43,739 nucleotides of DNA, taken from positions 1 through 43,739 of IMG/VR virus record IMGVR_UViG_3300021139_000035. One strand, 5' to 3'. Source of the stretch: a virus. The notes below the pieces were generated by a model, which worked only from the letters and a program-made list of their open reading frames with translations, was not told where the DNA came from and did not search any database. Both the position numbers and the translations under genes were made by a program. This document shows, piece after piece, positions 5,940-39,165 of this stretch. Numbering within the stretch: position 1 is the stretch's first letter; every line of letters starts with the position of its first letter.

Positions 5940-6500
5940 ATGACAACAGTATTCAAAAATCAAATACAAAATAATTTAGGTCCCACTGCATCAGTGACTG
6001 TAACAGCTACACAAGCAAGTACTCCAAGTGCAGGTTCTGTGACTTATACATTTGCAACACAAACAACTGCGCTATTTCCAGTTGGTTCTTATATCCTAAT
6101 ATCGGGTAGTAGTGTTTCTGGTTATAACGGAACATTTGGTCCTGTCACGGCGTCAACTACGGGATCGGTAACTGTTGCCAACACAACAACTGGAGCAGCC
6201 ACAGGGGGAACTATTTCAAATGTCTTTTGGTCCACTAATCCTAGTGCTAAAACAACAGTTATTGGATTTAGTTTAACAAACACCACAGGATATCTAGTGA
6301 CAGCAAACGTGCAAATATCAGATACGGTGGCTGGAACAACAGCAAACTATATTAATAATGTTCCTGTCCCAGCTAATCAAAGTTTGCGTATAGTTACAGG
6401 TGGAGAAAAATTAATTCTAGGACCGAGTACAAATGTTATAGTAAGTAGTAATCAAAGTTCTAGTCTAGATGCTCTGTTGAGCTTTGTTGAAATCAGTTAA
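5940..6500 (+). CDS. Fibre-accessory beta protein with GYNG insertion
   Basis: A 186-aa protein in two parts. Residues about 17-95 are a copy of the GYNG module: AGSVTYTFATQTTALFPVGS, then SGYNGTFGPVTAS. Residues about 100-186 (IGFSLTNTTGYLVTANVQIS, NQSLRIVTGGEKLILGPS) match the small beta protein at 1114-1446. The gene therefore looks like the small accessory protein with an extra module added near its N-terminus. It begins 3 nt after the preceding fibre gene and is probably translated with it. A virion role is likely; its partner fibre is presumably the protein encoded immediately upstream. Confidence 0.62.
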   Translation: MTTVFKNQIQNNLGPTASVTVTATQASTPSAGSVTYTFATQTTALFPVGSYILISGSSVSGYNGTFGPVTASTTGSVTVANTTTGAATGGTISNVFWSTNPSAKTTVIGFSLTNTTGYLVTANVQISDTVAGTTANYINNVPVPANQSLRIVTGGEKLILGPSTNVIVSSNQSSSLDALLSFVEIS

Positions 6501-6511
6501 GGAGTGATATA

Positions 6512-6898
6512 ATGGGACCACAATATGTAGGTGCAATAGGTGAACAAAATGTGTTTGGAGATAATAAAAGATTTTTCTACGCATTGTATCGTGACGACGT
6601 CGGCAATCTATACTATTGGAAAATTGATCAATTAACGGATACAGCTAGCTATGTTGTAAATAATCCAGGGCTAGCACAGAATGATTTTCAAGAATTCGAA
6701 TATGGCGTAGATTTCTTTGATGGAAGATTAGCAACTGATCATAGTCGCCCTTATAGCAATTTGGCATTTGATCAATATAGATGGGATACACAAAACATTA
6801 ATTATTATATCAGTACTGCATCAGGCAGCACAAAAGGACAATTTGTTGCTAGAGTAAATCAACCATATACCTATAGTGCCGGACAACAATTATCATAA
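6512..6898 (+). CDS. Hypothetical virion-associated protein
   Basis: A 128-aa protein with many aromatic residues, unlike the Thr/Asn-rich fibres around it. Visible segments are RFFYALYRDDVGNLYYWKID, EFEYGVDFFDGRLATDHSRP, FDQYRWDTQNINYYIS and a C-terminal RVNQPYTYSAGQ. The tyrosine-rich strands and compact size suggest a small globular beta domain. A good AAGGAGTGAT ribosome-binding site precedes the ATG. It sits between a fibre pair and the first giant gene and so is probably a structural or fibre-junction protein. I do not recognise a family and assign no function. Confidence 0.55.
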   Translation: MGPQYVGAIGEQNVFGDNKRFFYALYRDDVGNLYYWKIDQLTDTASYVVNNPGLAQNDFQEFEYGVDFFDGRLATDHSRPYSNLAFDQYRWDTQNINYYISTASGSTKGQFVARVNQPYTYSAGQQLS

Positions 6899-6920
6899 TT
6901 AAAGAATAAGGAATAAAGAC

Positions 6921-9900
6921 ATGGCAGAGTTCAAATTAGCTAGATTAAGATTTACCTGGAATGGTACTTGGGCACCTAGCACAGTATACAATCGAGATGC
7001 TATTGTGCAGTACAATGGTAAAACTTATGTATGTCTAGTTCCTAATACTTCTAGTTCTGCATTTACAACAGACCTAAATGCTCCAATACCTTTATGGAGT
7101 TTATTAATTGACGGTAAAAGTTGGCAAGGTGCATGGACGGCCAATGGCACATACTATACAGTAGGCGCTATTGTTACATTTGGCGGTGCAGTTTATATAT
7201 GTACAACTTCAAACACAAGTAGTAGTAGTTTTGCAAGTGATCAGACCAATTGGACTTTGTATGTTCAAAATGACAAATGGGAAGGTGCTTGGGCAGCCAA
7301 TACACAATACGGTATTGGAGATATTGTAAACTTTGATGGAATTGTTTATCGTTGTATAGTAGATCATACATCTTTATCTAGATTAGATGCTAATCCTAGC
7401 TATTGGTCAATTTATGATAATGGTGTTATGTATAGAGGAAATTTTACTGCTAATACACAGTATAATCTCAATGACATCGTTAAATTAAATGCCGAATTAT
7501 TCATTTGTTCTACTGCACATTTATCGTCGGGAGCATTTGTTACAGCATACTGGACTTTGTGGATGCCAGGCGAAGATTGGCAGGGAACTTGGTCATCAAG
7601 TACAATCTATCAAATTGGTGATATAGTTAGTTATGGCGGATACGATTATGTTAGTCTTACAGCCAATAATTCTGCTAACAATCCTGTAACTAGTGTAGGA
7701 GTAAACTGGAATACTATTGCTACTGGCTACAGCTTTCAACAAGAATGGTCGGCCAGCACAAATTATAAAATTGGCGCAGTAGTTACTCGACATGGTCAAG
7801 TATTTGATGCTACCGCAGATAACAGCAATCAAGACCCCACAGGCGGTCTGGCAGTTGCCGCTACTTATGTAAGCGGTAGCGGAAACACTATCAACGTTAC
7901 TGGTGTTTACTTGATACAAATTGTGCCAGGCATGACCGCAACTGGTCCTGGTTTTGCCAGCGGACAAACTGTTATTAGTAATGTAGGTACTGCTTATGCG
8001 GCCGCAATCACTCTTAGCGGACCTCCAGATTCTACTCCAAGTAGTATTAGCTTTATCGGTATTAATCAAGGTTTTTGGAAACTAGTAACACCTGGTGTAC
8101 AGTGGAGAGGTTTCTGGGCACAAGGTATTAATTTTGTTCCAGGAGATTTAACTGTTTGGCAAAACGCCACATATCGTTGTATTCTAGCACATACAAGTAT
8201 TCCAGGGCTTCGTCCTGATTTAGATAATAATAATACTTATTGGGTAGTATATCTATATCATGCAAGACACAATGCTGGACAAACCACCGGTGATCTAACT
8301 ATTAACAATAATGGTTCTAATATTGCATTACCAATTGGACCTAATACTTATAGTTTAAGAGCTACAAATAATCTTCCAGGATGGAGATACATACTTCCAA
8401 TTGCTAATGTTTATTATGTTGATACTGCTATTGGACAAGACAATAGCACTTATGGTACAACTTATGATCAGCCTTGGAAAACTATTGCTTATGCTTGCGC
8501 AACTTTATTAAAAGGTACACAAAATCAAAACGCTGTAGGATTTTTAACAGCTAATAAACAGTTTATTATTACAGAAATGTATCAATGGATGTTGTATCAA
8601 GTTGCTCAACAAATCAGCCCTTTTACTTCATCTAGTGTATTTGATGCTACTAAGACTCAGCGCGATGCAGGATATATTATTGATGCAGTTGCTTATGATT
8701 TGGGTCGCGGTGGCAATAGCCAAACAGTGGCAGCTACCTTAGCATATTTTAACACAGCTGGAACTTATTACAATACAGCAGTGACAACTGAAATATCTTA
8801 TTTTATTGCTTCAATAACTTATTTAGGTTCGTTAATTCAATACGTACTAAACAATACAGCAGTTCCTGTAAGTTATCAATTAGTTAACGGTATATCTGTT
8901 GGCAGCAGAATAAGCCAAATAATTAATAATTCTACAGCAGTTTCAGAAACAGGATCAGCAACACCTGCAAATGGTGCAACTATTAATGTAGGTAACTATG
9001 CTAATATTGCATGGACATTGAATGGAATCAACAATCAACAATTAAATTTAGTAAGAGGCAATACATATTATTTCTATCTAAGTCTTGCAGGACAAACATT
9101 TAATATACAAACTACAAATAATGGTTATGTAGCATTAAATCAATGGACACAAGGTGTAACTGGTAACGGATCTACAACAGGAACTGTGACATTTACTGTA
9201 CCTTATAGTGCTCCAAATAGATTGTATATTCAAGATACTAATCAATCAACTTTGTTTACACAATTAAACATTTATGATTCAAGTGCAACAATTACAACAC
9301 AAGCAAGTGCTGTAAGTCAAGCATCTACATTAATTAATATTCTTACTACAGCATTGAGTCAACAAACTACTGCAAGTGTTCCTCCTTCTAATTCAGGAAT
9401 CAGCGCAACAATTTTTGTAAAGACTGGTACCTATAATGAAATATTACCAATTAGTGTTCCAGAAAATGTAGCTATTGTAGGCGACGAGCTTCGCGGAGTA
9501 GTTGTACAACCAAGTATTATTATCAATACATATACTACACAAAATACATCAGCAACATTTACCGTGAGTTCAACTGCTGGTATGTATAATAATTGTCCAG
9601 TTCAGTTTTCAACTGGAGGAACTAGTGCATTAGGAACAGTATTTGGTGGTGTTACAATTGGACAGACATATTATGTTGTTGGTTCGAGTATCACAGCAAC
9701 ATCATTTGGAATTAGTTCTACTCCAAGCGGACAGCAAATAACTCTAACAACAGGCGGTTTAGGTGCTATGTATGTCTATGGTGGATATGCTCTAAGCAAT
9801 ATGTTCCAAATGCGTAACGGTACTGGTTTAAGAAATTTAACATTAAACGGTTTGTTAGGTACACTAGGCGCACAAAACGCATATCAGACACAACGACCTA

Positions 9901-29415: not shown

Positions 29416-31089
29416 ATGCCAATTACAAGTACCGTGGGAGGAAGTGTTGAGTTAAAAGGACTTGGCGGCGCTCACCCAGGAGTTGCACCAATAGATACCA
29501 GTGCAAGCACTGCGGCTGGATCCATCGGAACTATGACAGTATCATCCGGCGCCTGGGTAAGTTCAGGAACTACTCCACCAGGCTACCCATCTGGATATTA
29601 CCCTCTTAGTATTTCTAGTGTGTCGGGGCAACGTGTAGCATTTGATCCATTCGGACAAGGTGCAATTACATATAGCATTCCAAATGCAACTAGTGGCACA
29701 ATTAGTAGTGTGAGCGGAACTACAGTTACTATCAGCGGCAATACAAGTGGTATGAGCCAAGGTAGTGACTTTACAATCACGCTGCCTGGCGGCGGCACTG
29801 GTTCTAATAATTATGTATTTGGACAATTATATCCAGGAACATATTATGTTGCATCTGTATTAACCAGCAATCAAATAACTCTAGCAAGCAGTTATTCAAA
29901 CGCTATAGCTAATAGTCCTATAACATTTACTGGTACCTATAATACTAGTTATGGTTACACTGGTATGCAATATATCAGCGGAGGGTTGCCCAGTGGACTT
30001 ACATTTACTGCAAGTACTGGAACAGTGAGCGGAACTATACCAATTAACAGTAACTCAAATCCAGGTTACAATAATGGTATGATATTGAATTATCCACCAA
30101 CGGGCGGATTGTATTCAGGACAACCAGTTCCGTCTACCGCTTACGGATTCAAAGTTCGCGCTACCGATGCACTTGGCATTAATACTACGGATCGTACTTA
30201 CAGTATTAACTTGAGTGTGCCTTATGCATATCGTCAAGTTATTACTACAACATATCTACAAGCTGGTTATGCCAATAGTGCAGTTTGGCAAACTACTTGC
30301 CGCGTTACAAATTCAACAGACACTTCTATCGACTTAGGATCTGCAGGATATCAAGAAGTTGCCCATAATTATCAAATGAGCGCACACAACTATACACGCA
30401 GTTTTACATTTGGTGCGGCTGGAACTCATTGCGGTGCTGCCAGTAACGTTATTGCATTTAATATGCGCACTGAAACAGCTAACACTGCTGGTTACTCACG
30501 TAGTTATCCTGTAAGTCAAAACAACTGTTCTACCTTACGTCAAGAATATTACTTTGCATGGTGTACAAGTCCTGCAAGTGCAACTTGTTATGAAATGAAC
30601 CTATCAACCGAACAGGGTTATACTGCTCCAACTAGTTGTCCGGGAGGTAATGCATTGACCGGCAATAGCTGGGACGGTTACGGAGTTTGGATGAGTCAAA
30701 ATTATAATATGACTTATGCTACTCGTAGTGTTACAAGTCGTGGAGGTACTAATGTTTCAGGCGATGCCCAAGGTAAAGTAATGGAAGGTAAAATCAACGC
30801 TTATGGTGGTCGAGAAGGTTGTCCAAGTACTAACTGGCGCAGAACTGTTCAAAGTACTAACACTACAGTTGATGCCGCAGGCGCTAAACCCTATAACTCA
30901 GGCGAAGAAAACCATATGACTGGTCAAGATTGGGGGTATTGTGTTGGATTCTACGGCCCAGCCGGTCACGTTAACACTGCATACAAGTTTATCTATGCTA
31001 CAGAAGCTGGTTACGGCACTAATGCTAGTTTAGAAGCCAAAGGCGGCCACCCAGGAAATAGTTCAGGAACTTGTTGCTGGCGAGATTAA
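29416..31089 (+). CDS. Putative adhesin with Ig-like domain and cysteine-rich C-terminus
   Basis: A 557-aa protein, last of the fibre block. A putative Ig domain of the He_PIG type is visible: GAITYSIPNA, then GGLPSGLTFTASTGTVSGTI at residues 189-208. Its two halves are separated by a YYV-type module (residues about 91-185). RATDALGINTTDRTYSINLS follows. The C-terminal 260 residues contain all ten cysteines (295, 339, 371, 383, 391, 408, 469, 509, 553, 554) and many His, Trp and Tyr, and end in CCWRD. No other protein of the block is like this. It may be a receptor-binding tip stabilised by disulfides or metal. GGAG precedes the ATG. Confidence 0.65.
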   Translation: MPITSTVGGSVELKGLGGAHPGVAPIDTSASTAAGSIGTMTVSSGAWVSSGTTPPGYPSGYYPLSISSVSGQRVAFDPFGQGAITYSIPNATSGTISSVSGTTVTISGNTSGMSQGSDFTITLPGGGTGSNNYVFGQLYPGTYYVASVLTSNQITLASSYSNAIANSPITFTGTYNTSYGYTGMQYISGGLPSGLTFTASTGTVSGTIPINSNSNPGYNNGMILNYPPTGGLYSGQPVPSTAYGFKVRATDALGINTTDRTYSINLSVPYAYRQVITTTYLQAGYANSAVWQTTCRVTNSTDTSIDLGSAGYQEVAHNYQMSAHNYTRSFTFGAAGTHCGAASNVIAFNMRTETANTAGYSRSYPVSQNNCSTLRQEYYFAWCTSPASATCYEMNLSTEQGYTAPTSCPGGNALTGNSWDGYGVWMSQNYNMTYATRSVTSRGGTNVSGDAQGKVMEGKINAYGGREGCPSTNWRRTVQSTNTTVDAAGAKPYNSGEENHMTGQDWGYCVGFYGPAGHVNTAYKFIYATEAGYGTNASLEAKGGHPGNSSGTCCWRD

Positions 31090-31126: not shown

Positions 31127-31990
31127 ATGATAGACAGGATCAAACAATTTAATGACAGAAGCGTAACAGTAGATTTGCAATCAGACACTAGTATGTTGTC
31201 TGAAACCGATAAACAACATGTTATTAAAGCATTGAACAAAGAATGGACCAATCCAAAATTCAAAATGCGTTGGTTTGTGGGTCAAGCACAGGTTACAATA
31301 TATGCCAAATATCGTCAATTTTTAATGGAATTAAAAAGTCGAGAAGAAGGTATTGAAGATCTCGAATATAAAATGGAACAATGGGAAATTGATATCGCTC
31401 GTCATGAAATGATTGCGCAAGAAGCTGTAGATGAACTAGATAAGCGATTGGCAAAACTTGAAATTAAAAAGTTAACACGAGATTTAACACGCAGTCGCCG
31501 TATTGTTGAAGGTTGGTATTTAGAGCGCCAGCTGTATTGTGATTTAATTAATGAGTTTTTAGCAAGTCCGGAAGCATTATTGCCAGATAATAGCGGAAGA
31601 ACTTATGCAGATATTATCAACACTGATGAAGAAGATATCTACGAAGAATTGCTATGGACACATAGATTAGCAAAACAAGCATCTTGCGATATATTATTTT
31701 ATGGAAAAATCAATAGTGGTAACATGGATGCTATTCTTAGCATGAATCCCGAGCAACAAGCGCAGACATTTGCCTTAGCTACAAATTTTAGCATGCAAGT
31801 TCAAAATTATCTGTTAGAATTACAGGATCAGGCACATAAACATGGATCTGCAGGCCTTTCTTTCAATAATGGAGATCTGTTGATACCTAAACAAACATTA
31901 ATGCCTAAGGCAACAGAAACAAATCTAGGTAACACAGAAACAACAAAAAATGACGAAGTCAAGGATATGTTAAATGTATATTCTATATGA
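31127..31990 (+). CDS. Hypothetical protein with coiled-coil segment
   Basis: A 287-aa charged protein, very different from the Thr/Asn-rich fibres before it. Residues about 60-135 are a long helix rich in Glu, Lys and Leu (ELKSREEGIEDLEYKMEQWE, then LDKRLAKLEIKKLTRDL) and probably form a coiled coil. A second helical part covers about 135-235. The last 45 residues are polar and probably flexible. There is no catalytic motif. The place directly after the fibres and the helical build would suit a fibre-assembly chaperone or connector, but this is a guess. It overlaps the next gene by 17 nt. Confidence 0.6.
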   Translation: MIDRIKQFNDRSVTVDLQSDTSMLSETDKQHVIKALNKEWTNPKFKMRWFVGQAQVTIYAKYRQFLMELKSREEGIEDLEYKMEQWEIDIARHEMIAQEAVDELDKRLAKLEIKKLTRDLTRSRRIVEGWYLERQLYCDLINEFLASPEALLPDNSGRTYADIINTDEEDIYEELLWTHRLAKQASCDILFYGKINSGNMDAILSMNPEQQAQTFALATNFSMQVQNYLLELQDQAHKHGSAGLSFNNGDLLIPKQTLMPKATETNLGNTETTKNDEVKDMLNVYSI

Positions 31991-32528
31991 ATCTAAAAGA
32001 CATAAAATAGAACAACTTAAAGACTATGGTAAATTTTGGTTTTATGTCATAGGATATATTGCCCCAGAAGATCAAACAACTGTTGATTTATTTGATTTAT
32101 CCTACACAGAAATTTCTCAAGAAGTAGCTGATTGTGATCTGTTAGCTCCATCTAATGATGGTGTAGCTATCGTCAAACAACTTACTGAATCTATGAAAAG
32201 AGCAGATTTTGTTGGCCCAACGGGTGTTAACTACACCGAAAACGATGGTAAAAAATTCTATTATCATTTAACAGAAGAAGACAAAATTAATAGTTGTACT
32301 TTACTTAGAGAAATAATGAAGTTACAAATCCGTAATCACGGTCACCGTAAAGATCCGGTAGAATTGGCAGCTTTGTCAACAGCTATTGATCAGCTGCCAA
32401 CAAACGATTTGAATATTACGCAAATGTTTATGAGTACTTATTTTGAATTTGAAACAGGTTATACACAATTTAAGACTAAAGTTCCAATTATCAATATTAA
32501 ATTCAAATATGACGGAGAAGGGTTCTAA
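31974..32528 (+). CDS. Hypothetical protein of the fibre-flanking pair
   Basis: A 184-aa mixed alpha/beta acidic protein starting MYILYESKRHKIEQL. Its ATG lies inside the end of the previous gene with AAGGAT upstream, so translation is probably coupled and the two products may act together. Visible segments include FWFYVIGYIAPEDQTTVDLF and a helical region around EEDKINSCTLLREIMKLQIR. It ends with a beta hairpin (KVPIINIKFKYDGEGF). I do not recognise the family. A strong terminator follows 24 nt after the stop codon, closing this transcription unit. Confidence 0.6.
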   Translation: MYILYESKRHKIEQLKDYGKFWFYVIGYIAPEDQTTVDLFDLSYTEISQEVADCDLLAPSNDGVAIVKQLTESMKRADFVGPTGVNYTENDGKKFYYHLTEEDKINSCTLLREIMKLQIRNHGHRKDPVELAALSTAIDQLPTNDLNITQMFMSTYFEFETGYTQFKTKVPIINIKFKYDGEGF

Positions 32529-32598: not shown

Positions 32599-34281
32599 AT
32601 GTCCAAAATTTTTAGTATCCCAATTAATCCAAAACTGAATGTTGATCAATTTAATCAGTTTTATAAATTCTTATCTGATTATAAGGAGTACATTCGTGAC
32701 ATTTATTTTACCAGTCGCATAGCACCATTCATGCAAGATGCGATGGGCGATGTATTTGTTATACAAGAAGATCAGTCGCATCTTATTGAAACAGCACTAT
32801 ATATACAAAGAACTTTGGGTATTCCAATTAGTGCAACATTCAATAATATACAAGTTGCACCTACACAAAAAAATCTAGATATCTTTATTAAAAATTTTAA
32901 GACATTATATGATGCCGGTATACGTAGTGCGACGATTCCTCATACACACTGGATGGCAACAGGACAAATTAAAGCCGCATTTCCTGACCTTTATGTTAAA
33001 AATACAATATTACGAGAAGTAACTACCGCACAGGAAGTAGTTAATCTAGCACAATACGGTTTTGATTATATAAATCTTGATAGAGATTTGATGAGAGATC
33101 ACGATCGTTTACGAGAAATAAAAAAAGCAAAAGAATATATTAAGAAAACATTAGGTAAAGATATAGCAATTAGCTTGTTGGCAAATGAAGGGTGTGCTGG
33201 CGGATGTAGTATGATGGAAGAACACTTTCATTTTAACAATGCAAGAGAAGATGCAAACAGTCCGCAATACTTTAATGATACTATTAGCCGTGTAAGTTGT
33301 CCTAACTGGAATGTACAAGATTCGTCTATCTTTCTTAAACAAGCTAATTTTACTCCTTGGCGAGAAGACTGGGACGAATTTATTAACGATCTTGGGATAG
33401 ATAGTATTAAAATGCATGGTAGAGAAGGCATAACTAGATTGTTTGAAACTATGGAAATTGTTCGTAGATATGCAGCCGGTGAAGAATTTTTATATCCAGG
33501 GTTTGAAAGATATTTAGAAGAAACTAATCTTGTTGAAAAACCTATTAATATATGGCGAAATAAAATTAAAACATGTAGGTTTGAATGTTGGGATTGTAAT
33601 TATTGTGACAAAGTGTATGAAAAAAAATCTGATATAGAGTTTTCAGAACTAGTAAAACATGCCGCCGATTGTGTGTTACGATCAGGAGTACCAACTGTCC
33701 GTGTCAATGCCCCAGGATTGACCAGTATTAGAGTGCAAACTTTACTAAATTTACTAGCGCAGGGTGTAAATACATATTTAGAAATTGGTGCGGCACAGGG
33801 TGCAACATTTTGTGCAGTATTAAAAAATAACCCTATTAGGGCTATTGCCATAGATAATTGGCAACAAAATATACAACCGGCTAACGGGCAAGTTACTATG
33901 CCTAATAATAGTATCAACACTTTTATCAAAAATTTTGAACAGTACAAAGGAAAATCACAAATAAGTATTATAGATCAAGATCTATTTGATGTAGATGTAA
34001 CACCTTTTGCTAATTCGGTTGGCATGATGTTCTATGATGGTCCCCACGATAAAGAAGTTACAAAACGTGCAGTAGTACATTATGCACCGGCATTGACAGA
34101 TGAAGCCATAGTAGTATTTGATGATGCAAATTGGCCGTCAGTTGTAGCAGGCGCAAAAGCAGGTATAAAAGCGGCAGGTTTTGAAGTAGCTTATGAAAAA
34201 TTAATGTTAAATGACTTAGAAGATCCCAATGCTTGGTGGAATGGGGTGTTTGTTACCGTCATAAGGAGACTAAATGATTAA
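32599..34281 (+). CDS. U32-peptidase-like Fe-S domain fused to a SAM methyltransferase
   Basis: A 560-aa two-domain enzyme. Residues about 1-300 resemble the U32 TIM-barrel family: a YINLDRDL strand, NEGCAGGCSMMEEHF (Cys199, Cys203), SCPNW (Cys234) and DLGIDSIKMHGRE, matching the U32 signature around GIDS.KIEGR. U32 members such as UbiU/UbiV, TrhP and RlhA bind a 4Fe-4S cluster and act in hydroxylation of quinones or RNA. A second Cys set, CRFECWDCNYC (326, 330, 333, 336), precedes the C-terminal class I methyltransferase: motif I LEIGAAQG (394-401), acidic loop AIDNW, then FYDGPHD and VVFDDANW. The fusion is unusual. First gene of the seven-gene cluster; its end overlaps the next gene by 8 nt. 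The substrate is unknown. Confidence 0.7.
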   Translation: MSKIFSIPINPKLNVDQFNQFYKFLSDYKEYIRDIYFTSRIAPFMQDAMGDVFVIQEDQSHLIETALYIQRTLGIPISATFNNIQVAPTQKNLDIFIKNFKTLYDAGIRSATIPHTHWMATGQIKAAFPDLYVKNTILREVTTAQEVVNLAQYGFDYINLDRDLMRDHDRLREIKKAKEYIKKTLGKDIAISLLANEGCAGGCSMMEEHFHFNNAREDANSPQYFNDTISRVSCPNWNVQDSSIFLKQANFTPWREDWDEFINDLGIDSIKMHGREGITRLFETMEIVRRYAAGEEFLYPGFERYLEETNLVEKPINIWRNKIKTCRFECWDCNYCDKVYEKKSDIEFSELVKHAADCVLRSGVPTVRVNAPGLTSIRVQTLLNLLAQGVNTYLEIGAAQGATFCAVLKNNPIRAIAIDNWQQNIQPANGQVTMPNNSINTFIKNFEQYKGKSQISIIDQDLFDVDVTPFANSVGMMFYDGPHDKEVTKRAVVHYAPALTDEAIVVFDDANWPSVVAGAKAGIKAAGFEVAYEKLMLNDLEDPNAWWNGVFVTVIRRLND

Positions 34282-35800
34282 AAAAATTAAAAAAATTATA
34301 GTATTTGGTGGCGGCACAAGTGGATGGTTAACTGCGGCCTATATGGTTAAGAATCTTAATATACCAGCAGAAATAGTTTTAATTGAAGATGCTAGTGCTG
34401 GTCCCATCGGAGTAGGCGAAGGAACACAACCTTTTACTGCTAGATTTTTATATGAAGCTGGAATTCCTCCAAAAGACTGGATGAAATCAAGTCAGGCAGT
34501 ATTCAAATATGGAGTTGAAATTTCGGGATTTAACGAAGAACCGTATTTTGTAGACAACGATGTTCCTACAAACTGTATGATAGGGCAAGGTTTATTCACA
34601 AGCGATTATTTTGTAGACAGACCTTATAGTGAAGTAAGAGACTGGCACCCTGCATACCAACTAGCTAAAGCCAATGTTAGTAGTAAGTATGACGAATATC
34701 TAGATGCTAACCATGGCTCTGGACCCGAAAGCTACGGCGCTGTTCATTTCAATGCGTTTGATATTATCAAAACTATTAAAAATATTATTATAGATAAAAT
34801 TACTTACGTTGATACAAGGATTACAGATATCCAACAAGATAAAGATGGTATATCAAAATTAGTTGATCAGAACGGTAAAGAATATACAGCAGATTTATAT
34901 CTAGATTGCACTGGATTTTCTAGTTTATTAATAGAAAAAACATTAGGATCTCCTTTTACAAGTTATGCTCCTTGGTTGCCATGTGATAGTGCAGTTGCAA
35001 TGCCTACAGAATTTAAGGATCCTGTGAATGAAATGCACCCTTATACTAAGTCAACCGCAATGACTTCAGGCTGGCGCTGGACTATTCCTACGTTTACTCG
35101 CATTGGTAATGGATACGTGTATAGCAGTAAGCATTTGACTCCTGAACAAGCTGAACAAGAATTAAGAGAAAGTATTGGAGAATTTAATGCTCCAGCTAAA
35201 CACCTTAAAATGAAGTGTGGAGTTCATAAAGAAATCGCTGTAAAAAATGTTTGTGCAGTCGGACTAAGTGCTGGTTTTATCGAACCACTGGAAGCAACCG
35301 GTATAACTTTTACAACAGCCACAGTACAAAGTATTGCTGAGGTGTTAAATCTAAATGGAAATGTTTGGAATGATTACGCCAGAAAAAATCTTAATGCTGG
35401 TTTTTATGAAATGACTACTGAAATATTTGCGTTTGTATGGGCACACTATTATTTCAGTAGCAAAAATGACACACAATTCTGGCAAGATATCAGAAAAATG
35501 AAAATTTCTGATTTACCTAAAGAAGTACAAGATATATTAAATGTATTTTTAGAACGTCCATTGCCTTATATTTTCTTAAAACCAAACAGTATGTTTTGTA
35601 CTTTTCAATGGTTTACTATGTTGCATGCTGGCGGCGCTTATAAAAATGTCACCAGTAATTTAACTCCTAAACAAAAACAATATAGTAAATATTTTTTAGA
35701 TTCACACACTGCAAGAGTTAACCTAGCAAAAACAATATTTCCTAATCAATATCACTATTTAAGGTCTTGGTATAGTGATTGGGAATCCGAGGAGATCTAA
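34274..35800 (+). CDS. FAD-dependent tryptophan-halogenase-family enzyme
   Basis: A 508-aa protein of usual length for the family. The FAD-binding GGGTSGW is at residues 12-18 and GVGEGTQPF at 46-54. Lys78 in AVFKYG aligns with the catalytic Lys79 of PrnA and RebH. The halogenase signature W-x-W-x-I-P is intact (W267, W269, I271, P272), and Glu340 in EPLEATGI matches the conserved catalytic Glu. Family members use FADH2, O2 and chloride or bromide to halogenate an aromatic ring and need a separate flavin reductase, none of which is seen here. AAGGAG precedes the ATG, inside the end of the previous gene. The substrate could be free or protein-bound; neither is shown. Confidence 0.85.
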   Translation: MIKKIKKIIVFGGGTSGWLTAAYMVKNLNIPAEIVLIEDASAGPIGVGEGTQPFTARFLYEAGIPPKDWMKSSQAVFKYGVEISGFNEEPYFVDNDVPTNCMIGQGLFTSDYFVDRPYSEVRDWHPAYQLAKANVSSKYDEYLDANHGSGPESYGAVHFNAFDIIKTIKNIIIDKITYVDTRITDIQQDKDGISKLVDQNGKEYTADLYLDCTGFSSLLIEKTLGSPFTSYAPWLPCDSAVAMPTEFKDPVNEMHPYTKSTAMTSGWRWTIPTFTRIGNGYVYSSKHLTPEQAEQELRESIGEFNAPAKHLKMKCGVHKEIAVKNVCAVGLSAGFIEPLEATGITFTTATVQSIAEVLNLNGNVWNDYARKNLNAGFYEMTTEIFAFVWAHYYFSSKNDTQFWQDIRKMKISDLPKEVQDILNVFLERPLPYIFLKPNSMFCTFQWFTMLHAGGAYKNVTSNLTPKQKQYSKYFLDSHTARVNLAKTIFPNQYHYLRSWYSDWESEEI

Positions 35801-36234
35801 TGTTAAACCAACTAAATTCAAATTCGTATGCAACCTATACTGTAAAAAATAGACAGCCTAAGGGAGATAGTTACATAGATGCCAAAATTGATAAAGATCG
35901 ATATAAGCTAAGACGATGGATACAAACATTATTAGCAGATCGAGAAGTAATTGTTTTCTGGACTGAAGACGATAAAGATTATGTAATGATAGGAACTACA
36001 AATGTAAATCCAGGCGAGGGTTATGGAGAATTGCCAACTAATTTACCAACGGTAAAATGTAATATCAATGGTACTGAAGTAGACGAACCACAATTTATTA
36101 CATTTCATTGCGTACCAGGTAGAGAAATTGCTACAGTAGATGTTGATCACATAACTAAATTCATAGTCAGCATTGACGGACTAGTTGAATTAACAGAAAA
36201 AGCATTAAAGGAAGAAGCAAATGGTAAGGGATGA
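35800..36234 (+). CDS. Hypothetical protein in the modification cluster
   Basis: A 144-aa protein. The start chosen is the ATG at 35800, which shares its A with the stop codon of the halogenase (TAATG) and has GAGGAG 6 nt upstream; an upstream TTG in frame would add only seven residues. The sequence is mixed alpha/beta and acidic: YSIDAKI-like start (SYIDAKIDKDRYKLRRWIQT), EVIVFWTEDDKDYVMIGTTN, FITFHCVPGREIATVDVDHI. There is no known catalytic motif. Its place between a halogenase and a hydroxylase and the 14-nt overlap with the next gene suggest it works with them, for example as a substrate carrier or recognition factor. That is inference only. Confidence 0.6.
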   Translation: MLNQLNSNSYATYTVKNRQPKGDSYIDAKIDKDRYKLRRWIQTLLADREVIVFWTEDDKDYVMIGTTNVNPGEGYGELPTNLPTVKCNINGTEVDEPQFITFHCVPGREIATVDVDHITKFIVSIDGLVELTEKALKEEANGKG

Positions 36235-36793
36235 TTTTATCGGAGTGTTTGATAATATATTTTCTCCTCAAGAATGTGACGACATTATTGCCTATTATAA
36301 CGAGTTAAAAAAATTAAATCTTGTATTCAATCGTCCAGACAACGCCCACGATAAAAAAGATGAAACATTGTATTTGTTTGAACCAGATACATTGTATATG
36401 AAATCTACAAATCCTGTGATACAAACTATAATGGAAAGAGTTTGGAAATGTTATGCAGAGTATCAGGATACTTACAGCATTTTAAGATTAAAAAATGAAC
36501 AAGGCATCACAGGAATTAAAATTCAAAAAACTGAACCAGGTGGCGGATATCATCTTTGGCATTATGAAAATCAGGGAAGGATGCACTCTGATAGATTTTT
36601 AGTATTTCAAGTTTATCTTAATTCTGTAGAAGCTGGTGGCGAGACTGAATTTTTATATCAAAAAATACGAGTAAATGCACAACAAGGCAGAGTGGTGTTA
36701 TGGCCGGCAGGTTTTACACATACTCATAGGGGTAATCAACCATTAAGTGGTGACAAATATATCATTACTGGTTGGATTGAATACTTAAATTGA
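36221..36793 (+). CDS. 2OG-Fe(II) oxygenase, prolyl 4-hydroxylase type
   Basis: A 190-aa single-domain dioxygenase. The iron-binding triad is visible as His114-x-Glu116 (LWHYEN) and a distal His in FTHTHRGN (His169 most likely, His167 possible). Lys179 in GDKYIITGW fits the 2-oxoglutarate carboxylate contact. The double-stranded beta-helix core spans about 97-188, with a helical N-terminal part (SPQECDDIIAYYNELKK) typical of the P4H family. Related enzymes hydroxylate prolines or other side chains. AAAGGAAG within the preceding gene is the ribosome-binding site. Fibre-linked phages often carry such genes, but the substrate cannot be read from sequence. Confidence 0.8.
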   Translation: MVRDDFIGVFDNIFSPQECDDIIAYYNELKKLNLVFNRPDNAHDKKDETLYLFEPDTLYMKSTNPVIQTIMERVWKCYAEYQDTYSILRLKNEQGITGIKIQKTEPGGGYHLWHYENQGRMHSDRFLVFQVYLNSVEAGGETEFLYQKIRVNAQQGRVVLWPAGFTHTHRGNQPLSGDKYIITGWIEYLN

Positions 36794-36794
36794 T

Positions 36795-37976
36795 ATGAAA
36801 AAACGCTTAGGAATCATCGGATTAGGGTCTGCAGGTGTGTTGAGCCTAAGTTATTTTTGCGCACATTTAGATAATACTTGGGAAATTATTAGTATCAATG
36901 ATCCTAATGGAAAAATACTAGGTGTAGGCGAAAGTAGCAATCCAAGTTTTATACAAGCATTAGAAGCAGGACTCGGTTTTAATATGCACGAGGACGTTGA
37001 CAAACTTGATGCTACATATAAATTTGGAACTAAATGGAAATCTTGGCGAGATCAAGACTGGCTTGGACCACTGTTAGGCGGCAATACTGCTATTCATTTT
37101 AATAACTTTAAGTTAAAAGAATATGCTATTCCTAGATTACTAGCTAAATGGCCAACTAAATTTTCCGAACTACAAGGTAAGGTTGAACTATTAACTAACC
37201 ATGAAACTCATGTTGATGTTATTGTCGACGGCATGAGTTATAACTTTAACTATGTTATAGATTGTAGAGGATTTCCAACTAACTGGGATGATTATAATGT
37301 CTGTGACAACATGCCAGTAAATCACGCACTTGTACACAATAAACAAATACCTGGCGATTGGATGTATACTGGTCATCGAGCCCACAAAAACGGATGGATG
37401 TTTGAAATTCCGTTGACCAATCGACAAAGTTATGGATATCTGTTTAATGATACTATAACTAGTGTAGAGGATGCCAAGTCAGATTTTAGCCAAGAAATAA
37501 ATGTTCCTGTAGAAGAACTAGAAGGAATTGAATATAAATTCAAAAGTTTTTATACTACAAAATTACTGGACGGGAGAATTCTAAAAAATGGAAATAGAGC
37601 CATTTTCTTTGAACCTATCAGTGCTACAAGTCTATATATGTATGATCAAGCTAACAGAATATTTCTTGCTTATCTGAAAAATACCATAGATACACCAGAT
37701 TCAGTTAATAAAGAATTTACTAATATAGCCTCTGCCTTGCAAGAATTAATTTGTTGGTTTTATCACGGTGGAAGCATTTATGATACTGAATTCTGGCAAC
37801 AAACTAAAATCAAAACTGCTACTGTTGTTGCAAACAGTAAAATGATGCAAATTCTAAAGTCTAGCTATAAAGAATGGTTAGAAAAAGACAGTCCGATATA
37901 TGCCGATAAATTTTTCTTTGAGCCTCATTTAATGCTACAATTAGATAAAAATTTTCAATATAATTATTTCAAATGA
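36795..37976 (+). CDS. Halogenase-like flavoprotein with altered active site
   Basis: A 393-aa relative of the halogenase at 34274, about 115 residues shorter. It keeps the dinucleotide motif GLGSAG (9-14), LGVGESSNPSF (42-52) and Lys76 in ATYKFG. The W-x-W-x-I-P signature has become W201-M-F-E-I-P206, and the position of the catalytic Glu is Ser276 in FFEPISATS. It may therefore carry out flavin-dependent oxidation or hydroxylation, act on another substrate or serve as a partner of the intact enzyme. It follows the P4H-type gene by one base and overlaps the next gene by 4 nt (ATGA). Confidence 0.72.
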   Translation: MKKRLGIIGLGSAGVLSLSYFCAHLDNTWEIISINDPNGKILGVGESSNPSFIQALEAGLGFNMHEDVDKLDATYKFGTKWKSWRDQDWLGPLLGGNTAIHFNNFKLKEYAIPRLLAKWPTKFSELQGKVELLTNHETHVDVIVDGMSYNFNYVIDCRGFPTNWDDYNVCDNMPVNHALVHNKQIPGDWMYTGHRAHKNGWMFEIPLTNRQSYGYLFNDTITSVEDAKSDFSQEINVPVEELEGIEYKFKSFYTTKLLDGRILKNGNRAIFFEPISATSLYMYDQANRIFLAYLKNTIDTPDSVNKEFTNIASALQELICWFYHGGSIYDTEFWQQTKIKTATVVANSKMMQILKSSYKEWLEKDSPIYADKFFFEPHLMLQLDKNFQYNYFK

Positions 37977-38590
37977 CCTATAGACTAACTAATGATCCTT
38001 ATCTAACTGCCGCAACCATGCCGCCTTTTGCTAAATTGTCACAGGTGTTTACTGCTACAGAACTTGATAGAATGTGTGCTTATTTCTCTAGTAAAGGTAT
38101 TGAAGCCGGTCTTGTAGGTAAGACCGGTGGAGACACTATGGAATTAGAATTACGTAAATCAGGGATTAAAATGCACGAATACACAGCGGAAACATCGTGG
38201 ATTTTTGAAAGATTAAACGATGCTATAGAAAAAGGTAACAGTCATTTTTTTAGATTTAATCTCGTAGGTTATGATTATCTACAATATACCGAATATAAAG
38301 CACCTGATGAAAAATACGGCTATCATACAGATATGCCTTACGGACCAAATCATTCTTTAGAAAAACATCTAATGCGTAAACTTTCATTTAGTTTGATCTT
38401 AAGTGAACCGTCAGACTACGAAGGCGGCGAATTTGAATTTATGATAGAGTCAGATAAACCCTGGCCCATTCCACAAACTCGGGGAGATTTAATAATGTTT
38501 CCTAGCTGGTTATTGCATGAAGTAAAACCTGTAACCCGGGGTATACGTAAGAGTTTAGTAGGATGGGTGTTGGGGCCTAAATTTATATGA
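37973..38590 (+). CDS. 2OG-Fe(II) oxygenase, PKHD-type hydroxylase
   Basis: A 205-aa dioxygenase. The metal triad is His118-x-Asp120 in YGYHTDMP and His182 in WLLHEV. Arg192 in GIRKSLVGW would hold 2-oxoglutarate. EGGEFEF (150-156) and GDLIMFPSWLLHEVKPV (171-187) are characteristic of the P4H/PKHD group. It differs from the enzyme at 36221 in the Asp ligand and in using Arg rather than Lys, so it is a separate lineage and not a recent copy. Its ATG overlaps the stop of the previous gene and its own stop overlaps the next ATG, both as ATGA. Probably hydroxylates a peptide or small molecule. Confidence 0.82.
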   Translation: MTYRLTNDPYLTAATMPPFAKLSQVFTATELDRMCAYFSSKGIEAGLVGKTGGDTMELELRKSGIKMHEYTAETSWIFERLNDAIEKGNSHFFRFNLVGYDYLQYTEYKAPDEKYGYHTDMPYGPNHSLEKHLMRKLSFSLILSEPSDYEGGEFEFMIESDKPWPIPQTRGDLIMFPSWLLHEVKPVTRGIRKSLVGWVLGPKFI

Positions 38591-39165
38591 TAAAACGTTT
38601 TCCTTTATACCACAGTGATTTATTTGTATTAGAAAATATTGGCACAGATAATCAAGTAAACGCACTTGTCGAACAAATTAAAAAAGAAAAGCAACAATCT
38701 CCTGCAACAGATTTAACTAATCGGGGTTGCTGGCGTAGCATAAAATGGTGGAACGATGTTGATTGGTTAGGCCAGGCAGTTTGCACTTTAGCAGAAACAG
38801 CTAGTACACATTATAAAGAATTAGACCCTAATTTTGAAAAGGGATCTAAATTCAAATTAGGTATGTGGACTAATGTTAATGATCCTAACAGTAAAAATGT
38901 AATGCATAATCATGTTAGAGATGTGTTTGCCGCAGTCTATTATGTACAAGGCGAAGACACTGGTGATCTAAGACTTGTCAATGCAAGTAATACCATGCAA
39001 GATCTAAATCCTTTTTCTCCTTTTAGCAGAGATTTTAGATACGCTCCTAAAAATCGTAGTTTAATTTTATGGCCAGCATGGGTTCCCCATGAAGTAGAGA
39101 CCAATTTAAGTAATAAACAGCGCATCAATATTGCATTTAATGTAAATTTTGACAATGAACTATAG
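38587..39165 (+). CDS. Putative 2OG-Fe(II) oxygenase (TIGR02466-like)
   Basis: A 192-aa protein with the pattern of the third oxygenase group found in marine phages. It has MWTNVNDPNSKNVMHNHVRD, then AAVYYVQGEDTGDLRLVNA, then SLILWPAWVPHEVETNLS and RINIAFNVNF. His107/His109 and His168 are the likely iron ligands and Arg179 the 2-oxoglutarate contact. This is the last gene of the cluster; a 96-nt gap follows, with only a weak GTAT/ATAC hairpin near the stop. Three distinct oxygenase families in one operon suggest three different hydroxylation steps or sites. Confidence 0.75.
   Translation: MIKRFPLYHSDLFVLENIGTDNQVNALVEQIKKEKQQSPATDLTNRGCWRSIKWWNDVDWLGQAVCTLAETASTHYKELDPNFEKGSKFKLGMWTNVNDPNSKNVMHNHVRDVFAAVYYVQGEDTGDLRLVNASNTMQDLNPFSPFSRDFRYAPKNRSLILWPAWVPHEVETNLSNKQRINIAFNVNFDNEL

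Follow-up and report, generated by a model that had tools for sequence, protein, structure and literature searches.

A phage gene family that encodes a U32-like barrel and a class I methyltransferase in one chain

The U32 proteins are a poorly understood class tied to O2-free hydroxylation, and the activities described in PMC6747719 and PMC6599085 act on RNA or on quinone precursors. The O2-free hydroxylation ascribed to TrhP and RlhA is prephenate-dependent. During ubiquinone synthesis, the product of the anaerobic hydroxylase UbiU-UbiV goes on to O-methylation. In Bacillus subtilis, the U32 proteins TrhP1 and TrhP2 (YrrO and YrrN) and the methyltransferase TrmR (YrrM) are encoded in one operon and act in sequence: TrmR methylates the tRNA U34 hydroxyl that is formed with the help of TrhP1 and TrhP2, converting ho5U34 to mo5U34, and E162 is essential in TrhP (PMC6599085). 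Fusions of TrmR to a different hydroxylase, TrhO, have been reported in three species (Phytophthora, Phaeodactylum) (PMC6599085). Fe-S clusters are general among U32 proteins, and the UbiU-UbiV heterodimer carries the motifs CX6CX16CX38C and CXnCX12CX3C (PMC6747719).

The phage protein described here resembles each of these systems in part. Like TrhP1/TrhP2-TrmR, it combines a U32-superfamily protein with a COMT-like O-methyltransferase, but the B. subtilis proteins are separate, have the canonical U32 motif and use a tRNA substrate, whereas the phage version is a single chain with a different cysteine pattern, an acidic surface and a tail-region setting. With UbiU-UbiV, for which an Fe-S cluster has been shown, it shares the U32 superfamily and conserved cysteines. 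Like the TrhO-TrmR fusions, it joins a putative hydroxylase to a TrmR-type methyltransferase; TrhO, however, is an O2-dependent rhodanese-family protein and not a U32 protein.

The window (the whole stretch of 43,739 nt that was analysed, a 43.7-kb virus record) encodes a T4-like tail sheath stabiliser, gp15 (4e-23). There is an ORF at 32599-34281 on the plus strand, starting with ATG, whose 560 aa product carries a U32-like barrel and a class I methyltransferase in one chain, as seen in both sequence and fold. Comparison with relatives that are 90-91% identical gives a dN/dS of 0.03-0.06 in both domains, so the gene is real and functional. The domains co-evolve (distance correlation 0.95) and are under strong purifying selection.

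The fusion protein is not unique but is a member of a large, widespread and unnamed phage family, carried by hundreds of aquatic viruses, many of which have cyanobacteria of the ocean as hosts. It matches phrog_1458 (1.6e-166) and phrog_36869 (4.8e-74), both of unknown function. A tblastn search locates it in 123 phage records, every one from a cyanophage, and the match covers at least 80% of the query in 121. Annotated cyanophages label the family as hypothetical, T4-LIKE GC 354; these phrog_1458 proteins are 42-46% identical to the fusion protein and have the same two-domain architecture. The N-terminus occurs in at least 564 viral contigs, and among the best 80 the methyltransferase extension is present in all that are not cut by the locus end. 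In one contig, L148, the two domains are overlapping adjacent genes (5992-7008 and 6920-7612); as this is a single contig, a sequencing frameshift is possible. A literature search found no paper linking U32 proteins to cyanophages.

The C-terminal half was described as a complete class I methyltransferase in an initial annotation made from the sequence alone, and the Pfam search agrees: Methyltransf_24 matches residues 394-509 (33778-34125, plus strand) above the cut-off, at 3.9e-9. Motif I (ExGxxxG) has its conserved glycines, G397 and G401, and three invariant aspartates that are putative metal ligands, D480, D508 and D509, line up with IDAAKG and TDN in TrmR. COMT-like structures match the domain at Z 14-16 (up to 16.4). 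The closest solved protein by profile is TrmR/YrrM of B. subtilis (1.9e-5), with 3ntv (0.0016) next among the methyltransferases, while by fold TrmR is one of many COMT-like structures with a similar Z. By sequence and fold the domain is an intact COMT/TrmR-type O-methyltransferase, and is probably Mg2+-dependent.

The N-terminal module (residues 1-345; 32599-33633, plus strand) is harder to place. The U32 hallmarks on which the initial annotation was based, NEGC...C and GIDSIKMHGRE, are both present as described, and the second aligns with the canonical U32 motif GVD(A/S)IKIEGRMKS. The HMM searches that it had proposed nevertheless recovered the methyltransferase and not U32: there is no match to PF01136 (Peptidase U32) at E up to 1 in the fusion protein, nor any across the whole record, and no U32 match in NCBIfam. 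Single-sequence and profile searches of the phage N-terminus against the PDB also found no U32 protein. Weak PDB profile matches to the PG1 light chain (0.14-0.22), OMP decarboxylase (0.064) and nsp3 (0.0016) were treated as chance.

The connection to U32 is made through bacterial proteins, which the family profile reaches at about 1e-10 to 5e-14. Four bacterial NEGC proteins (L120, L121, L124 and L125) pass the Pfam Peptidase_U32 cut-off, the best at 1.8e-13. In profile-profile comparisons the phage set matches the bacterial NEGC set at 8e-21 over residues 4-342, and the bacterial NEGC set matches TrhP, UbiU, UbiV and three other U32 proteins at 2.9e-10; the direct match between the phage set and canonical U32 is weak (0.0015).

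When the whole protein was modelled with AlphaFold2, confidence near the cysteines was low (pLDDT below 50). A domain-only model from 71 sequences was better (pLDDT 88.5, pTM 0.88) and has eight strands in TIM-barrel order. Of the solved folds, the one closest to this model is that of the U32 protein Mk0906 (5d88; Z 16.1, rmsd 3.4, 229 residues aligned), with MTHFR as runner-up (Z 13.2) and aldolases also among the matches, and 5d88 is rank 1 in Foldseek (4.4e-7). No solved structure of UbiU, UbiV, TrhP or RlhA is in the structure match lists, an absence that carries no weight. The prediction had been proposed as a way to reveal a missing U32 barrel, and with 5d88 ranking first it leaves the initial annotation standing on that point. 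Taken together, the bacterial intermediates with the same seven cysteines and the modelled fold show that the N-terminal domain is a divergent member of the U32 superfamily.

The cysteines all lie where the initial annotation had placed them. Cys199 and Cys203 form NEGC-x3-C (33193-33207), Cys234 follows (33298-33300), and Cys326, Cys330, Cys333 and Cys336 form C-x3-C-x2-C-x2-C at the end of the U32-like module (33574-33606), all on the plus strand. None of these seven varies across the 25 full-length relatives, nor among those of the 71 N-terminal sequences that extend to them; Cys358 and Cys405 are not conserved. The loop with Cys199 and Cys203 comes after barrel strand 7 (residues 190-195 in the model) and is where the alignment places the first cysteine ligands of canonical U32 proteins. 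Invariance of this kind is compatible with the one or two metal centres that had been suggested, and a role for the cysteines in binding metal is likely.

The last four cysteines had been taken for an extra cluster at the fusion junction. Bacterial relatives that have no methyltransferase carry the same NEGC-x3-C, the lone later cysteine and the C-terminal C-x3-C-x2-C-x2-C, and the stand-alone viral protein of L148 retains the C-terminal four. The cluster therefore belongs to the U32-like module, as its C-terminal part, and did not arise through the fusion. The phage pattern, CX3CX30C plus CX3CX2CX2C, differs from both motifs of the UbiU-UbiV heterodimer, and the canonical four-cysteine U32 motif CX6CX15-16C...C (CX6CX15CX3/4C) is absent from the phage protein. 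So is the essential glutamate of TrhP, since the position aligned with E162 is Ser192 in the phage protein and lysine in L132. These differences, with the failure of direct U32 searches, do not bear out a close kinship to UbiU, UbiV, TrhP and RlhA, and the chemistry of the phage barrel may differ because the canonical cysteine motif and E162 are missing.

The bacterial NEGC proteins (L120, L121, L124, L125, L127, L129 and L115) have full-length homology and share all seven cysteines with the phage protein but are stand-alone, with no methyltransferase. Some of their genes adjoin a canonical U32 gene or molybdopterin-oxidoreductase-like genes. At L138:6517-8873 and L140:5885-8346, NEGC U32-like genes are directly downstream of a canonical U32 gene, gene pairs that recall UbiU-UbiV and TrhP1-TrhP2. 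At L131:1432-3576 (minus strand) a bacterial radical SAM N-terminus is fused to an NEGC U32-like C-terminus, and there is a second radical SAM-like ORF beside it. The homologue at L115:7589-9520, from a Syntrophaceae MAG, is stand-alone and 44% identical, and is followed by a short NAGC-x3-C protein; there are sulfate-activation genes in the region. The short protein (L115:8744-9520) was considered as a partner subunit and rejected, as it matches weakly (probability 52). L113 (labelled Euryarchaeota) and L114 (Dehalococcoidia) are short contigs with phage-type proteins that are probably mis-binned, and these were not counted as cellular. Finally, a 269 aa protein of Escherichia phage OLB35 (BFVD A0A3G3MCS7), annotated as a peptidase, shares this barrel at 19% identity (Foldseek 1e-11), so U32-like proteins may occur in other phages without the methyltransferase.

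The fusion gene region comes after the tail-fibre genes in several cyanophages. The gene p287 (31127-31990, plus strand; phrog_1409), which encodes a helical protein, is upstream of the fusion gene on the same strand, separated from it by 0-3 genes, in 94 of the 98 informative loci, a set that includes some contigs counted twice. It is present in 123 phage records with the same organism breakdown as the fusion gene, and the named phages listed for the two genes coincide, whereas the neighbouring halogenase is present in only 77. In S-RIM14 about 6 kb of sequence separates p287 from the fusion gene, yet both are retained. Part of this co-occurrence could come from vertical descent within one phage clade. 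Residues F50, Q64, E68, E133, W177, R180, Q184, G193, G198 and N199 of p287 are invariant. The gene p184 (31974-32528, plus strand) usually lies between p287 and the fusion gene (57 of 106 loci). Further upstream, p557 (29416-31089, plus strand) encodes a protein rich in Gly, Ser, Thr and Tyr, of tail type by its composition, and is found in 90 of 106 loci. In isolated phages, tblastn finds nothing that matches the C-terminal region of p557, so the association of p557 with the fusion gene could be assessed in viral contigs only. Two further ORFs of the window, within 6921-28166, are very long (2666 and 4405 aa) and encode fibre-type proteins rich in Ser, Thr and Gly.

We tentatively propose that the protein is a two-domain modifying enzyme of T4-like phages, in which an Fe-S barrel hydroxylates a tail-region substrate without O2 and the methyltransferase then O-methylates it; of the readings considered this is the one we favour, as a possibility well short of a firm assignment. 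Cys199, Cys203 and Cys234 together with one or more of Cys326-Cys336 would hold a [4Fe-4S] cluster, and there may be a second metal site as well. The barrel would add a hydroxyl without O2, as is thought for the U32 proteins TrhP, RlhA and UbiU-UbiV, and the fused domain would then methylate that hydroxyl as TrmR does ho5U. The substrate may be an adjacent protein of the tail-fibre region, with p287 (a candidate substrate or adaptor) or p557 as candidates, rather than tRNA, although this step is proposed more weakly. That the protein could hydroxylate and then methylate was already raised in the initial annotation, and the argument for it is by analogy: among solved proteins TrmR comes nearest to the methyltransferase domain, and its action after TrhP1 and TrhP2, with the TrmR-TrhO fusions, provides a precedent for this order of events. 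Against the mechanism, the named relatives infect cyanobacteria, which evolve oxygen, and a hydroxylase that uses an Fe-S cluster and works without O2 would be surprising there.

The barrel may be no hydroxylase at all, but may carry out other metal chemistry or bind and position a substrate, leaving the methyltransferase as the sole active unit. The loss of the canonical ligand spacing and of the TrhP glutamate would fit this, as would the many chemistries hosted by TIM barrels, MTHFR and aldolases included. However, the barrel is the more conserved half of the protein (mean distance 0.36 vs 0.57 for the methyltransferase half) and has, besides the seven cysteines, three invariant histidines (H115, H209 and H273). 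A catalytic barrel therefore fits better than a passive one, and we consider the absence of hydroxylation rather unlikely.

It is unlikely, too, that the enzyme modifies RNA, as a fused analogue of TrhP-TrmR that, in the infected cell, would introduce 5-methoxyuridine or a different methoxy base into tRNA or rRNA of the phage or its host. The kinship of the methyltransferase domain to TrmR points this way, one bacterial relative matches the TrhP model (8.3e-8), and the U32 proteins TrhP and RlhA have tRNA and rRNA as their substrates (PMC6599085). But both domains are acidic in all 25 full-length relatives, no added RNA-binding domain is seen in the fusion protein, no tRNA gene was found in the window, and the conserved linkage is to tail-region genes and p287. 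The partner gene p287, the locus and the uniformly acidic domains modestly favour a tail-region protein over RNA as the substrate in the proposed mechanism.

The genes on the other side of the fusion gene raise the possibility of another substrate. Genes for halogenases and 2OG oxygenases are its neighbours in about 60 of 106 loci and thus appear to be optional. In the window, 34274-35800 and 36795-37976 encode flavin-dependent tryptophan-halogenase-like proteins (Pfam 1e-92 and 1.2e-30). Of these, the first is a relative of VirX1, a phage halogenase (6qgm, 4.8e-52), and keeps a WRWTIP motif; the second has WMFEIP in its place. Three 2OG-Fe(II) oxygenase-like genes surround the second halogenase (36221-39165), so that hydroxylase-, halogenase- and methyltransferase-like genes are together downstream of the fibre genes. 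With these neighbours, the fusion protein might tailor a small molecule or glycan, for example by O-methylation of a sugar or quinone, to decorate the virion or host surface. Fold matches of the methyltransferase domain include MycF and SpnH, which are sugar O-methyltransferases, and the substrates of UbiU-UbiV are quinone precursors (PMC6747719). However, no glycosyltransferase or carrier gene was recognised among the scanned neighbours, and in the cyanophage loci examined the halogenases and oxygenases are not beside the gene while p287 is kept. This makes such tailoring improbable. It is very improbable that the barrel is a U32-type protease that cleaves tail or fibre proteins and has a methyltransferase joined to it: U32 was originally named as a peptidase family and the gene sits in a tail-fibre region, but the U32 members described in PMC6747719 and PMC6599085 are hydroxylation or Fe-S proteins, and neither the O-methyltransferase fusion nor the invariant cysteines point to proteolysis.

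In its most specific form, the proposed mechanism is a single-chain O2-independent hydroxylase and O-methyltransferase with a new seven-cysteine metal arrangement that puts methoxy groups on phage tail proteins, and in that full form we think it quite unlikely to be correct. If it is true, U32 chemistry would be modifying virion proteins after translation, in phages whose hosts evolve oxygen. A phage-borne fusion with a cysteine pattern of its own, conserved across 123 records of cyanophages and at least 564 viral contigs, provides a one-protein system for testing U32 chemistry coupled to methylation. It would also assign a function to a widespread aquatic phage gene that is annotated only as hypothetical, and could reveal chemical decoration of the adhesion machinery in these phages, alongside the halogenases and oxygenases.
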